A DNA stretch of 39,759 bases from a virus. Positions 5,251 to 25,498 of this stretch are shown piece after piece. The notes below the pieces were generated by a model. The model made no database searches. It was not told the origin of the DNA and worked only from the letters and a program-made list of their open reading frames with translations. The position numbers were made by a program, and so were the translations under genes. Location: IMG/VR virus record IMGVR_UViG_3300043775_001742, positions 1 to 39,759 of that record; one strand, given 5' to 3'. Each line of letters begins with the position of its first letter. Positions within the stretch are counted from its first letter, which is position 1.

Positions 5251-5774
5251 ACCTCGCCGTTCTCCACACCAAGATCGCCGAGAAGATCAACGCCAAGTTC
5301 GGCGCATCGGTCAAAACCATCGCCGCATATTCACGATTCAACGACAAGATCGAGGTGCCTGCCATCACTTTCGAGTTGGACACCATCGAGCCATCCGACC
5401 CCGCAGACATCGGCACGCAGCAACTCCAGGTCGACATCCGCTTTTCTGCATCGCTCATCTACTCCTACAAACAAGGCAACAAATTCGCCGTGCGCCTCAT
5501 GGCCACAAACTTCGCCTCATTCCTGCAAGGCCAGCGGTTCGGAATGCCCGTCACGCCCGCCCGATTCATCGCCGCCACCCCGCAAGAGTTCGACGCCGAA
5601 AATCCCGAATATGAAACATGGCGCGTCGAATGGGAGCATACCTGCCTCCTCGGCGAAACCGCATGGCCAGAAGGTGGAGCACTGCCCACGGACATCCGCG
5701 CTTCATGGGTGCCCAAGATCGGCATCCCCCACGAGCCGGACTATGTGCCGATACAAGACATCCTTGCCACATGA
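5232..5774 (+). CDS. Putative tail terminator/completion protein
   Basis: The 180-residue protein starts with a short helix (DLAVLHTKIAEKINAKFG) and then alternating beta strands (VPAITFELDTIEPSD, QLQVDIRFSASLIYSY), a long helix (FAVRLMATNFASFLQGQRFG) and a C-terminal strand with TWRVEWEHTCLLG. The helix-sheet order and the place between gpZ and gpV fit phage tail terminators or connectors that cap the tube. I cannot match a named family by eye. It overlaps both neighbours, so it is in the same operon. Confidence 0.62.
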   Translation: MATQQIDLAVLHTKIAEKINAKFGASVKTIAAYSRFNDKIEVPAITFELDTIEPSDPADIGTQQLQVDIRFSASLIYSYKQGNKFAVRLMATNFASFLQGQRFGMPVTPARFIAATPQEFDAENPEYETWRVEWEHTCLLGETAWPEGGALPTDIRASWVPKIGIPHEPDYVPIQDILAT

Positions 5775-6493
5775 GCAACGCCCGCCTCGGAGAGCTTGAG
5801 CGTCGTCTCAGCAACACCATCCGACCCGGCACGGTCTTAGAGGCCGACTACGCCAAGGCCCGGATCCGTGTCACGATGGGAGAAAACACCAGCGCATGGC
5901 TCCCGTGGCTCACCAGCCGCGCCGGTGAAGACCGCACATGGCACGCCCCCGAAGTCGGCGAGCAAGTCATCGTCATTGCCCCCGGCGGCGAACTCTCCGC
6001 CGGCTATGTCATGCCAGGAGGCGTGTATAAAAACGACTACCCCGCCAACGCCGACAAAGCCGAGATCAGCCGGACCACCTACAAAGACGGGGCCGTCATC
6101 GAATACGACCGAGAAGCCCACGCACACCGCATCCAACTCCCCGAAGGAAAAGCCATCGTCAAAGTCGGAGACGATGCCCAGACAGAGATAACGCCCGACA
6201 AGATCACGGCAAAAGTGGGATCGGACGCAAAGACCGAAATCACCGCCAGCAAGATCACCCACACCCTCGGCAGCAGCAGCAAAATCGAAGTCACATCCGG
6301 CAGCGTGAAAATCACAGTCGGCGGAACCTCCCTCGAAATCTCCAGCAGCGGAATCACGATCAACGGCAACATCACGCAAACCGGAAACTACGACCAGACG
6401 GGTCTGATGAAATCCAACGGCATAACGCTCTCGACGCACACGCACGGCGGCGTCATGCCCGGCACAAGCATCACAGCAGTCCCCAATCCATAA
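5771..6493 (+). CDS. V: Baseplate spike protein V (P2 gpV-like)
   Basis: The 240-residue protein has an OB-like N-terminal domain (GTVLEADYAKARIRVTMG, WLPWLTSRAG, WHAPEVGEQVIVIAPGGEL, GYVMPG) diagnostic of the gpV/gp5 baseplate assembly family. A repetitive beta-helical stem follows, with repeats of the kind 'KTEITASKITHTLGS' and 'KIEVTSGSVKITVGG'. Near the end is STHTHGGV, the His-X-His that binds iron at the tip in P2 gpV. It trimerises into the membrane-piercing spike of a contractile tail. The ATG at 5771 overlaps the preceding stop by ATGA. Confidence 0.92.
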   Translation: MSNARLGELERRLSNTIRPGTVLEADYAKARIRVTMGENTSAWLPWLTSRAGEDRTWHAPEVGEQVIVIAPGGELSAGYVMPGGVYKNDYPANADKAEISRTTYKDGAVIEYDREAHAHRIQLPEGKAIVKVGDDAQTEITPDKITAKVGSDAKTEITASKITHTLGSSSKIEVTSGSVKITVGGTSLEISSSGITINGNITQTGNYDQTGLMKSNGITLSTHTHGGVMPGTSITAVPNP

Positions 6494-6610
6494 CCTCCTC
6501 CGTGTTCTCCGTGGCGGGAAGTCCCCGCAGAAGACACCCCCCAGCGCCGCCATAAAATCCTGCGTCATGCACAGCAATCAATCTGACATACGGAGGTCTG
6601 AGCCAGTAAA
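6494..6610 (+). other. Intergenic gap with repeat sequence upstream of W
   Basis: This 117-bp gap holds a CCTCCGTG-TCTCCGTGG stretch (6494-6513), an exact copy of the dispersed 14-mer CCCCGCAGAAGACA (6523-6536) and the start of a 274-bp segment copied from the end of gene J and start of gene I (from 6577). No gene or clear promoter is visible. Confidence 0.75.
6523..6536 (+). repeat. Dispersed 14-mer CCCCGCAGAAGACA, copy 2
   Basis: An exact copy of the 14-mer in the V-W gap, again preceded by CCTCCGTG-type sequence and a GGAAGT flank shared with copy 3. Confidence 0.8.
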
Positions 6611-6850
6611 ATGAGCCGCTCGATTTACCAATATCTGTCAGACCAAGACGGCCTCTTTTGGTATTACGGGCAGGCTCCAGACGCCGCCGCCGTCACGGAT
6701 TTACTCTGGAATATCCTGCGGCACGAATACAGCTCGTCCGGCGAGCTTGTCGAGACCCGCGTCGCTCTTAACACCTCGTGGGAGCAACGCACAAACGCCG
6801 ATTACCAAATCCCTTCGACGGAAACGGAGCCAATCGCCCCCGACCTCTCG
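6577..6850 (+). repeat. 274-bp direct duplication, copy A (gene I start)
   Basis: This segment matches 8050-8323 at an offset of 1473 bp with about three differences (two adjacent changes near 6597-6598 and one near 6766). It carries the last 33 bp of gene J, the gene I leader and the first 80 codons of gene I, placed in frame upstream of gene W. Confidence 0.93.
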
Positions 6851-7186
6851 ATGCGAGGCATGAGCAGCGAGACCGGCAAGGCGCTTTCCGGGCTGAACCA
6901 TTTAAAGCAGTCAATTCGGGACATCTTAACGACCCCGCTCGGATCTCGCGTCATGCTCCGAGACTACGGCTCACGCCTGTTTGACCTCGTGGACGCCCCC
7001 ATAAATCGCGGAACCATCGTGGAAATCTATGTCGCAACCATCGAGGCCATTCGCAAATGGGAGCCTCGCGTTGAGATCACGCGCGTCATCGCTCAGGCCA
7101 TCGAACCCGGAAAGATCACAATCGGCCTCGAGGGGGTCTATCTCCCGACCGGAACGCCTCTCACTCTGGACGGCATGGTTGTATGA
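6611..7186 (+). CDS. W: Chimeric gene: gpI N-terminus fused to baseplate protein W (gp25-like)
   Basis: The reading frame encodes 191 residues. Residues 1-80 are copied from the N-terminus of tail protein I. From residue 81 (MRGMSSETGKALSGLNHLKQ) the sequence is a full gpW/gp25-like baseplate wedge protein: SIRDILTTPLGSRVMLRDYG, IYVATIEAIRKWEPRVEITRV, ITIGLEGVYLPTG. gpW normally has about 110-130 residues, so the W part is complete. Native starts would be ATG 6851 or ATG 6860. Translation may begin at 6611 (chimera), internally, or both. The 3' end overlaps J by ATGA. The duplication has replaced whatever lay upstream of W. Confidence 0.85.
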   Translation: MSRSIYQYLSDQDGLFWYYGQAPDAAAVTDLLWNILRHEYSSSGELVETRVALNTSWEQRTNADYQIPSTETEPIAPDLSMRGMSSETGKALSGLNHLKQSIRDILTTPLGSRVMLRDYGSRLFDLVDAPINRGTIVEIYVATIEAIRKWEPRVEITRVIAQAIEPGKITIGLEGVYLPTGTPLTLDGMVV

Positions 7187-8082
7187 GCTACACGCCAATC
7201 GATCTTTCAAGTTTGCCAGCGCCGAAAGTGATCGAAGGCCTGCACTACGTCGCAATTTTGCAGGAAATGGTGGACGACCTCAAAGCCCGCAATCCCGCAT
7301 TCACGGCCATCGTGGAAAGCGACCCCGCCTTTAAAATTCTGGAAGTTTGCGCCTACCGCGAAATGCTCATCCGGCAGCGCGTCAACGATGCCGCCCGTGG
7401 CGTCATGCTCGCCTACGCGACCGGCAGCGACCTCGACCAACTCGGAGCGCTCTTCGGCACAACCCGCAAAGTTCTCGTTCCAGCCGCCCCGACTGCGATC
7501 CCGCCGCGCTTGGCCGTCATGGAAACGGACACCGATTTCCGCTATCGCGTCACACTCGCCCTTGAGGGCTTGAGCACCGCCGGCCCGGAAGGAAGCTATC
7601 TTTACCACGCGCTCAAAGTGGCTGGAGTCAAACACGCGACTATCGTCGGCCCTCCTACCGTCTCCCCCGGCAATGTCCTCGTGACCGTCCTCGGCCTCAC
7701 AGGTAACGGCGCACCCTCGGCAACCGTTGTCAGCAATGTATCACTGGCACTCAACGCCGAAAGCGTCCGCCCGCTAACCGATGCCGTGACCGTGCAAGGC
7801 GCATCGATCCAGAACTACACGATCACCGCGACCATTTTCACTTTCCCCGGCCCTGACTCGTCAGTGGTCATGGCCGAAGCCCAAGCCAGCGCCCAAGAAT
7901 TCGCAACGCAGAATCACAAAGTCGGCAACGACATCAACATCTCCGCGATCTACGCAGCACTGCATGTGGACGGCGTGCAAAAAGTCAACCTTGCCGCCCC
8001 CACGGCCAACATCGTCTGCGACCACACGCAAGCCCCCTTCTGCACCGCGATCAATCTGACATACGGAGGCTTGAGCCAGTAA
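7183..8082 (+). CDS. J: Baseplate assembly protein J
   Basis: The 299-residue product matches P2 gpJ: IDLSSLPAPKVIEGLHYVAILQEM at the start, DPAFKILEVCAYREMLIRQRVNDAA, the 'A.G..LD.LG...G..R' segment (YATGSDLDQLGALFGTTRKVL), FRYRVTLALEGLSTAGPEGSY, and a C-terminal beta domain with VQKVNLAAP. gpJ is the outer baseplate wedge protein related to T4 gp6. It overlaps W by ATGA and is followed after one base by gene I. Its last 33 bp are part of the duplicated segment. Confidence 0.93.
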   Translation: MSYTPIDLSSLPAPKVIEGLHYVAILQEMVDDLKARNPAFTAIVESDPAFKILEVCAYREMLIRQRVNDAARGVMLAYATGSDLDQLGALFGTTRKVLVPAAPTAIPPRLAVMETDTDFRYRVTLALEGLSTAGPEGSYLYHALKVAGVKHATIVGPPTVSPGNVLVTVLGLTGNGAPSATVVSNVSLALNAESVRPLTDAVTVQGASIQNYTITATIFTFPGPDSSVVMAEAQASAQEFATQNHKVGNDINISAIYAALHVDGVQKVNLAAPTANIVCDHTQAPFCTAINLTYGGLSQ

Positions 8083-8323
8083 AATGAGCCGCTCGATTTA
8101 CCAATATCTGTCAGACCAAGACGGCCTCTTTTGGTATTACGGGCAGGCTCCAGACGCCGCCGCCGTCACGGATTTACTCTGGAATATCCTGCGGCACGAA
8201 TACAGCTCGTCCGGCGAGCTTGTCGAGACCCGCGTCGCTCTCAACACCTCGTGGGAGCAACGCACAAACGCCGATTACCAAATCCCTTCGACGGAAACGG
8301 AGCCAATCGCCCCCGACCTCTCG
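8050..8323 (+). repeat. 274-bp direct duplication, copy B (native gene I start)
   Basis: This is the copy in its expected context: the end of J and the first 80 codons of I, continuous with the rest of gpI. It is therefore the likely source of copy A at 6577-6850. Confidence 0.9.
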
Positions 8324-8854
8324 CTGCGCGACCTGCTTCCTTCCAACGCGACAGCGCCAGAGCGATCCCTTTCTCTCGCCACCGCCCGCCTCGGCTCAAT
8401 CGACACCCCCATCCGCTCACTCTGGAATCCCGACACCTGCCCGGAGGAGCTCCTGCCATGGTTAGCCTGGGCGACATCCGTCGACGAGTGGGATGCCAAC
8501 TGGACGACCGCAACCAAGCGAAATGTCATCAAGAACTCTGCCGAGATTCACCGCAAAAAAGGCACCGTCGCCGCTGTCAAAACACTCCTCGACTCATTCG
8601 GCATCGCGCTGCAACTCAGCGAGTGGTGGCAGACCACGCCAAAAGGCACCCCCCACACTTTCGGCATCGCCCTCGGCTGGCTCCAAACCCCCGCCGAAGT
8701 GCAGGACTCGATCAGCAAAGCAGTCTCTGCCGTCAAACCCGTGCGCAGTTCGTTCACCCTATCAGCCCTCGAATCCTTCGTCGGCAGCGTGAACATCGTC
8801 GGCATCTGCCGCCCCGCCACATTCAACCGCCTCGATTGCGCAGCCACCTACTAA
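8084..8854 (+). CDS. I: Tail protein I (baseplate)
   Basis: The 256-residue protein has an N-terminal extension shared with the chimeric W gene and then the gpI signature: SLRDLLPSNATAPERSLSLATARL, PIRSLWNPDTCPEELLPWLAWATSVDEWD, NSAEIHRKKGTVAAVKTLLDSFG. The 'LLPWLAW..SVD.WD' and 'H..KGT..A' motifs are typical of P2 gpI, which links wedges to tail fibers. The N-terminal part (about 80 residues) is longer than in P2. It lies between J and H as in P2. Confidence 0.92.
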   Translation: MSRSIYQYLSDQDGLFWYYGQAPDAAAVTDLLWNILRHEYSSSGELVETRVALNTSWEQRTNADYQIPSTETEPIAPDLSLRDLLPSNATAPERSLSLATARLGSIDTPIRSLWNPDTCPEELLPWLAWATSVDEWDANWTTATKRNVIKNSAEIHRKKGTVAAVKTLLDSFGIALQLSEWWQTTPKGTPHTFGIALGWLQTPAEVQDSISKAVSAVKPVRSSFTLSALESFVGSVNIVGICRPATFNRLDCAATY

Positions 8855-10512: not shown

Positions 10513-11619
10513 ATGTCAAATTTTCTCCACGGCGTCGAAGTCCAAGAAATCACAGGCGGGCCGCGCCCGATCAAAACCGTTTCCTCAAGCGTCATCGGCC
10601 TCGTAGGCACAGGCGCGACACACGTTGATTTCCCGCTGAATACGCCCGTCCTCGTCACCTCGCCCACGGGAGTCTCAACCAAGCTCGGCGCGACCAGCTA
10701 CCTCGGCAAGGCCATTGAGGCCATCTACGCACAGACCGGCGCGGTTGTCGTCGTCGTTCGCGTTGCAGCGGCAGCGGATGTCGCTGGCAGCTCCAGTCTG
10801 CTCACAGGCGTCCACGCCCTGCGCAAAGCGCAGGCAGAACTCAATGTCACGCCTCGCCTCATCGTTGCTGAAGGCGCTTACGAAACGACCACGATTGACG
10901 ATGTAAAACTCGTCGCCTCCGCTCTCCGTGCGGTTGCCATCGCTGGACTCGTTTCAAGCGTTGCCGCAATCGACACCGCCACCGAAGCCTCCGCATGGGT
11001 CACAGCAAACGGCAACGACCGCATCTATGGCATCTGGCCAGCCGTCAACGGCGGCGGAGACCCCGCGCCATATGTGGCAGGCGTCATGGCTCGCATCGAT
11101 AACGAGCGTGGCTTTTGGTGGTCACCCTCCAACAACGAAGTTTCCGGCATCGAGAAGATCGACAAAGCCGTTGATTTCGTCCTCGGTGACACCTCCTCGC
11201 TGGCCAATGTGCTCAACCTCGGCAATGTCGCCACCTTCATCCGCAGCGGTGGCTTCCGCCTCTGGGGCAACCAGACCGGATCGACCGATGCAAAATACCA
11301 ATTCGTCAATGTTCGCCGCACAGCCGACCTCATTTTCGACAGCCTGCAACGCGCCCACCTCTGGGCAGTGGATCGCCTCATCTCGAAAACATACCTCGAA
11401 GATGTCACCGAGTCCGTCAACGCCTACCTCGCGAGCCTCAAAAACCAAGGCGCAATCCTCGGCGGCAAATGCTGGGCAGACCCAGATTTAAACACCCCGG
11501 CAAACATCCAACTCGGAAAGGTGTTTTTCAACTTCGACTTCACACCGCCTTACCCAGCCGAGCACATCACTTTCCGAGGCGAACTGACCAACGAATACCT
11601 CAAAGAAATCCTCAACTAA
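10513..11619 (+). CDS. FI: Contractile tail sheath protein FI
   Basis: The 368-residue protein opens FLHGVEVQEITGGPRPIKTVSSSVIGLVGTGA, the hallmark of P2-type sheath proteins ('HGVeV.Ei..G.RPI..v.ssVIG.vGTA'). Later motifs include TPVLVTSPTGVSTKLGATSY, NERGFWWSPSNNEVSGI, FRLWGNQTGS, and the C-terminal VFFNFDFTPPYPAEHITFRG followed by NEYLKEIL. The sheath contracts to drive the tube through the envelope. The C-terminal domain is the conserved inner part that hooks to the tube; length is close to P2 FI. Confidence 0.95.
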   Translation: MSNFLHGVEVQEITGGPRPIKTVSSSVIGLVGTGATHVDFPLNTPVLVTSPTGVSTKLGATSYLGKAIEAIYAQTGAVVVVVRVAAAADVAGSSSLLTGVHALRKAQAELNVTPRLIVAEGAYETTTIDDVKLVASALRAVAIAGLVSSVAAIDTATEASAWVTANGNDRIYGIWPAVNGGGDPAPYVAGVMARIDNERGFWWSPSNNEVSGIEKIDKAVDFVLGDTSSLANVLNLGNVATFIRSGGFRLWGNQTGSTDAKYQFVNVRRTADLIFDSLQRAHLWAVDRLISKTYLEDVTESVNAYLASLKNQGAILGGKCWADPDLNTPANIQLGKVFFNFDFTPPYPAEHITFRGELTNEYLKEILN

Positions 11620-25058: not shown

Positions 25059-25498
25059 AGAAATTAACCACAGAGGACACAAAGAACACGGAGAGGGAGA
25101 CGCTTACAACGATTTACCGATGGATTGAGAGAAATCACCCTGACGGATTTGTCGATTCCCTGACTTTTTCTCAAAATTTAGAGCGGGTCGGTGACCGTTG
25201 GTATGACCGTCTTCATCGTCTGGAGCGCGAGCGAGACGAGGCGCGACATAAACTTGAGCTTTGCATGGCAGCAAATAGCGATGTCGCAAGAATAGCAAAA
25301 GAGCGGGACGAGGCGCGGGAGCAAAACGCCAAGTTACGAGAGGCATTGCTTCGCGTTCGAACATGGGGGCTAGCATCAAAAAACTGGTCAGCAACCCACG
25401 GGGATGACATGGCCCAGTGGATCGACGCTGGCTGCGTAGGTGAGCTGCCACCGCCTCGTAGCGAGTGGATTTGCGGAAAATTGGAGGGCGCGAAATGA
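25055..25498 (+). CDS. Coiled-coil protein with repeat-derived N-terminus
   Basis: The 147-residue protein begins KKLTTEDTKNTERETL, encoded by an ACCACAGAGGACAC-type repeat, then has TIYRWIERNHPDGFVDSLTF and a coiled coil (RLERERDEARHKLELCMAAN, VARIAKERDEAREQNAKLRE). A Trp-rich tail follows (WGLASKNWSATHGDD, AQWIDAGCVGELPPP). A 92-bp part of the coiled coil is shared with the 28864 gene. Phage early proteins of this type are common but have no known activity. The stop overlaps the next ATG by ATGA. Confidence 0.72.
   Translation: MKKLTTEDTKNTERETLTTIYRWIERNHPDGFVDSLTFSQNLERVGDRWYDRLHRLERERDEARHKLELCMAANSDVARIAKERDEAREQNAKLREALLRVRTWGLASKNWSATHGDDMAQWIDAGCVGELPPPRSEWICGKLEGAK
25225..25316 (+). 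repeat. 92-bp shared coiled-coil coding repeat, copy 1
   Basis: This matches 29160-29251 with about five differences and encodes REARHKLEL-type coiled coil in both genes. The high DNA identity across 3.9 kb suggests gene conversion or recent duplication. Confidence 0.85.

Follow-up and report, generated by a model that had tools for sequence, protein, structure and literature searches.

A Copied gpI N-Terminal Module at the Start of gpW in a P2-Like Phage Baseplate Cluster

The Baseplate Locus and the Chimeric W Gene

The window, meaning the whole 39,759-base virus record that was analyzed, contains a baseplate cluster in the order V-W-J-I-H, with W placed between V and J as in its relatives; a collar/fibre protein is encoded downstream, and the cluster is of the P2-like baseplate type (Table 1). 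Typical gpW/gp25 proteins have about 110−120 aa, with the W domain right at the start, although this trait is not strictly defining. The gene in the window departs from this short architecture: the open frame encodes 191 aa, of which the first 80 form an added module and the remaining 111 correspond to the protein read from the native start. As for its W part, the GPW_gp25 profile matched residues 94−174 of the chimera with 56.2 bits, above the curated cutoff of 27.2, and the chimeric protein matched phrog_43 (baseplate wedge) with an E value of 1e-40.

The W core is intact in the chimera and differs from that of its relatives by 26−36 synonymous and 4−6 amino acid changes, so that its divergence is almost wholly synonymous. 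The window W carries a mean of 4.7 amino acid changes, against about 1.0 in most relatives; faster evolution after the fusion was considered and set aside, because W of the unfused relative L009 is equally divergent (4.4) and the window J is elevated as well.

Table 1. Features of the Baseplate Locus and of the Repeat in the Window
Feature	Position	Strand	Evidence or remark
gpV-like baseplate spike gene, upstream of the insertion	5768..6493	+	Pfam Phage_base_V, E 1e-16; Apex motif
CCCCGCAGAAGACACC element	6523..6538	+	lies 44 nt before the old W start, as it does in the related phages checked
TAAAAT leader of native W	6553..6558	+	now ahead of the orphaned ATG at 6567
Mini-ORF of 15 codons (MHSNQSDIRRSEPVK) from the old W ATG	6567..6614	+	its TGA and the chimeric ATG overlap as ATGA
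Copy 1 of the repeat: J tail and I codons 1−80, at the W start codon	6568..6850	+	differs from copy 2 at five positions
Chimeric gene: 80-aa gpI N-module and complete gpW, 191 aa	6611..7186	+	in-frame ORF
Native gpW (gp25-like sheath initiator), 111 aa, start ATGCGAGGC	6851..7186	+	PF04965, E 3e-15
gpJ	7183..8082	+	Baseplate_J, E 2e-26
Copy 2 of the repeat, at the donor site: 3′ end of J with its stop, I codons 1−80	8041..8323	+	
gpI: accessory N-module (residues 1−80) and Tail_P2_I (85−221)	8084..8854	+	PF09684, E 5e-46

The Direct Repeat

Positions 6577−6850 and 8050−8323 form a direct repeat of 274 bp with an offset of 1473 bp and three differences (6597 T/C, 6598 C/T, and 6769 T/C); the match is far above chance (blastn E 4e-140), and the comparison bears out the sequence-only reading, which had described this repeat and its in-frame fusion to W. 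The similarity extends back to 6568/8041, giving 283 bp with five differences in all, the additional ones being 6573 A/C and 6576 A/G; the repeat includes an exact stretch of 170 bp. Of gene J, copy 1 contains the last 12−13 codons and the stop; the gap base follows, and then codons 1−80 of I.

Read in the J and I frames of the donor, none of the five differences alters an amino acid, whereas only about a quarter of random changes there would be expected to be synonymous. Four of them fall within the J part, and of these three are known as alleles from the J genes of relatives (GGTCTG, GGCAATC); the T at 6769 also occurs in several relatives, leaving the A at 6573 as the sole private base. The differences had earlier been taken as accumulated since the duplication, a claim that does not hold given their synonymous nature and the occurrence of most of them as alleles of relatives; they look mostly inherited via a slightly different donor, or due to later exchange in copy 2, rather than the product of decay after duplication. 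Between the two module copies there is a single difference in 240 coding nt, also synonymous, which is too little for a selection test.

The Copied Module

Regarding the nature of the copied piece, residues 1−80 contain no part of Tail_P2_I (PF09684), which begins at residue 85, and they had no match by sequence in Pfam, PHROG, or the PDB; the module was not found among 50,697 phage records, nor in a pattern scan of bacterial and archaeal genomes. A collagen-like protein of the tail-fibre type in related phages has a C-terminal domain homologous to the module (HMM E 5e-11), and the profile−profile comparison of the two gave an E value of 9e-8 with 36% identity over 78 columns, the whole domain. 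A fibre gene with such a module-like end is present in 27 contigs. The window fibre (36627−38327) resembles the one at L160:588−1337 in the first 25 residues and differs in the remainder: the relatives' fibres end with the module-like domain, whereas that of the window ends with a glycine-rich part, and the copies of the domain found in the window are on W and I only. AlphaFold models of gpI and of the chimeric W had poor confidence over the module (pLDDT about 25−43).

A small fibre-type protein at L160:2344−2757 has a C-terminal stretch that resembles the module weakly (profile E 0.05 against gpI and 0.002 against the fibre), and another, at L162:2314−2727, has a module-like C-terminal stretch of similarly weak resemblance (profile E 0.002−0.05). 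The domain family may be wider, although at this level the L160 protein is not counted as a member.

About 32 viral contigs have a gpI with the 80-residue front module. It comes in two types, one more than 90% and the other about 65% identical to that of the window; every clade relative bearing I has it on gpI. The outgroups L035 and L036, with gpI 58−59% identical, have a gpI free of the module. Judged by these profiles and alignments, the module is a complete, lineage-specific accessory domain placed ahead of Tail_P2_I, and not part of the conserved gpI body. The proposal that the fusion lends W a gpI docking surface is therefore not sustained, because the 80 residues precede Tail_P2_I, are absent from the outgroup gpI and from the 50,697 phage records, and are homologous to a fibre C-terminal domain.

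Breakpoints and Polarity of the Fusion

L009 has the same upstream sequence (TAAAATCCTGCGTC) and was used as the reference for the breakpoints. Compared with it, the insertion falls precisely on the codon with which W used to start: CCTGCGTCATGC / ACAGCAATC...GACCTCTCG / ATGCGAGGC. At the 5′ join there is a TGC overlap with the donor, and ATGC is duplicated; the 3′ join, at 6850/6851, coincides with the boundary between the module and canonical gpI (Tail_P2_I). No inverted repeat pair was found in the window, where the repeat is present in two copies only; a mobile element or transposon is unlikely because terminal inverted repeats and further copies are both missing from the window. A tandem duplication of a fibre domain was also considered and does not describe the locus, since the copies are 1473 bp apart and in two genes.

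The sequence-only reading had suggested a comparison of V-W junctions among related phages: in all 22 related contigs aligned at this junction the order is plain V-W-J-I, and W begins at ATGCGAGGC and bears no module; scanning with the chimera itself returned no further fusion. By these alignments the fused W is the derived state. Ancestral presence followed by loss was rejected, as the aligned relatives and the outgroups all have plain W. The simplest history would have gpI acquire the module in the clade's ancestor, followed by one recent copying to W in the window lineage.

The mechanism that we propose has the fibre-type domain placed earlier on the front of gpI in this phage clade; a single, recent illegitimate recombination would then have copied the J 3′ end through I codon 80 into the W start codon, the donor being the window genome or a very close relative. 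The copied piece would bring along one complete accessory domain together with gpI's own translation start. The account that we favor, with somewhat better than even confidence, is that the sheath initiator received a fibre-type accessory domain in one recent event, possibly a neutral one, and that the chimeric W is probably translated from the copied start.

Start Signals of W

TAAAAT stands ahead of the W ATG in all 22 relatives. After the insertion the native start at 6851 has no TAAAAT/TAAA leader, and the chimeric start at 6611 keeps gpI's own context, AGTAAAATG, which includes TAAA. The chimera is favored as the main product because the native start lost its TAAAAT and the copied gpI start keeps its leader; translation from 6611 is likely, and W would then be read from the gpI-type start that came with the copy, perhaps by coupling to the mini-ORF that begins at the old one. 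It had been suggested that the duplication could give W a new start signal, and the copied start with its own leader agrees with this. It should be noted, against this reading, that TAAA immediately adjoins the ATG at 6611, nearer than at most other starts, and that several other genes have no TAAA.

As for starts elsewhere in the window, most are without a Shine−Dalgarno sequence, and several genes have TAAA ahead of the ATG (for example those at 10513, 11629, and 12539, with TAAA 4−14 nt before it), against a background of 5% of all ATGs.

Recurrence and Alternative Explanations

An exact junction search found both new junctions together in three other contigs, L114 (3300044530), L115 (3300043539), and L037 (3300042299), which are 99.98−100% identical to the window, come from three other IMG metagenomes, told apart by record name, and share its order V-copy-W-copy-I. 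In L116 (3300042315_000376), from a further metagenome, the V-copy junction is present and is followed directly by I; W-J is absent, and the bases change from those of copy 1 to those of copy 2 between 6598 and 6769. L023 (3300044638) begins within the repeat. A repeat-induced misjoin that placed a second copy in front of W might be suspected from these two contigs and from the 170-bp exact stretch, which could confuse short-read assembly. Such a misjoin is highly improbable: both junctions occur in four contigs of different metagenomes, the window included; five copy-1 bases differ from copy 2, some of them near each junction; and copy 2 alone cannot yield the V-copy and copy-W joins, so that the artefact, if any, is L116. 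The duplication is real DNA and not the artefact of one assembly, since its junctions recur in contigs of other metagenomes, and the chimeric gpI(N)-gpW gene is real by its frame, its profiles, and this recurrence; the earlier view that the repeat is no artefact thus stands, albeit not for the reason then given, the accumulated differences. L116 itself arose either by genuine recombination with deletion or from a misjoin over the exact stretch. In the former case it is precisely the product expected from recombination between the direct copies, with the switch between 6598 and 6769, and the duplication could mark a decaying or defective lineage in which W and J are deleted. This is very unlikely, because an intact, near-identical segment with open W, J, and I frames is found in several metagenomes and L116 may also be misassembled.

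Another possibility is that the module is a neutral passenger, either useless and tolerated on W or serving as a mere leader, with W made mainly from the native start at 6851. The intact W core and the retained native ATG agree with this, as does the youth of the event; with one difference in 240 nt, selection on copy 1 is not measurable. On the other hand, the native start no longer has the leader found in each of the 22 relatives, whereas a leader precedes the chimeric start, the 3′ breakpoint falls precisely on a domain boundary, and the fused state is common to all the contigs found of this phage that reach W. A neutral passenger is accordingly a real but minority possibility, and the transfer of a domain to a W translated from the copied start is preferred.

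Predicted Placement in the Baseplate

P2 gpW, gpJ, and gpI correspond to T4 gp25, gp6, and gp7 (PMC6300606). The gp25-like initiator of XM1 rests on a core bundle to which proteins of the gpJ and gpI types contribute their N-termini (PMC10457771); the sheath initiator of diffocin touches the hub with its N-terminal loops (PMC10996793). From these arrangements, a module on the gpW N-terminus would be expected inside the baseplate, near the gpI set; the sheath initiator would carry the domain at its N-terminus and so provide a second set of domains in the baseplate. The possible benefit would be a further attachment point near the hub or the fibre sockets. The diffocin contacts also argue against the main reading, because an addition of 80 aa may be poorly tolerated where N-terminal loops touch the hub. 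We infer the assembly of the chimeric W, and any benefit from it; the module might supply a point of attachment, or W may just tolerate it.

More tentatively, and with doubt outweighing confidence, a small domain may be shuffled among fibre ends, gpI, and now gpW, adding an adhesin or fibre-associated function to the ring that triggers contraction. If so, the window would represent the newest step, in which the accessory domain was first placed on a gp25-type protein.

Comparison with Known Systems

Few parts of contractile injection systems are as conserved as the gp25/gpW proteins, which normally consist of a bare small domain. The window W resembles the initiators of this family (P2 gpW, T4 gp25, XM1 gp15, TssE; PF04965) in its normal core and in the usual V-W-J-I order, and differs from them in the 80-residue N-terminal accessory domain; 426 phage records match the chimeric W, and none covers at least 80% of its length. 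Similarly, the donor gene I has a full Tail_P2_I like that of other gpI proteins (PF09684; T4 gp7, TssG, XM1 gp17 type), unlike which it has an extra N-terminal module absent from the outgroups and known phages; this module is the only part of gpI that was copied.

Domain duplications with an effect on host range have been described in the tail-fibre genes of Xanthomonas phages OP1, Xp10, and Xop411 and in the T4 adhesin (PMC2248197). These cases and the window share short duplications of virion-protein domains among close relatives; theirs are tandem within one fibre gene, whereas in the window the domain moved to a different gene encoding a core baseplate protein, and no effect on host range is known. 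The phage records and the literature searched yielded no earlier case of a gp25-type protein that had received an accessory domain. A core part of the injection machine thus gained a domain absent from W in all the relatives examined. Being clean, recent, and natural, and having unfused close relatives, the fusion shows how baseplate cores can gain modules; the fused and unfused forms of W offer a ready test of the tolerance of the gpW N-terminus.

Other Features of the Window

Among cellular proteins, gpI is closest (53%) to one from a Verrucomicrobia bacterium MAG, and the hosts of the phage are therefore probably Verrucomicrobiota. The CCCCGCAGAAGACACC element occurs four times in the window with at most one mismatch (1163−1178, 6523−6538, 10445−10460, and 34168−34183), and three of the four lie shortly before gene starts; at up to three mismatches there are five matches against 0.56 expected, and the element may be a leader element or a promoter of late genes. 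A second duplicated coding segment of 104 bp, with 93% identity, lies at 25220−25323 and 29155−29258, in two different ORFs. Finally, the contig ends (1−318 and 39472−39759) have a common array of similar repeats, 85−94% identical, seemingly from a single repetitive gene, and the genome is possibly circular or permuted.
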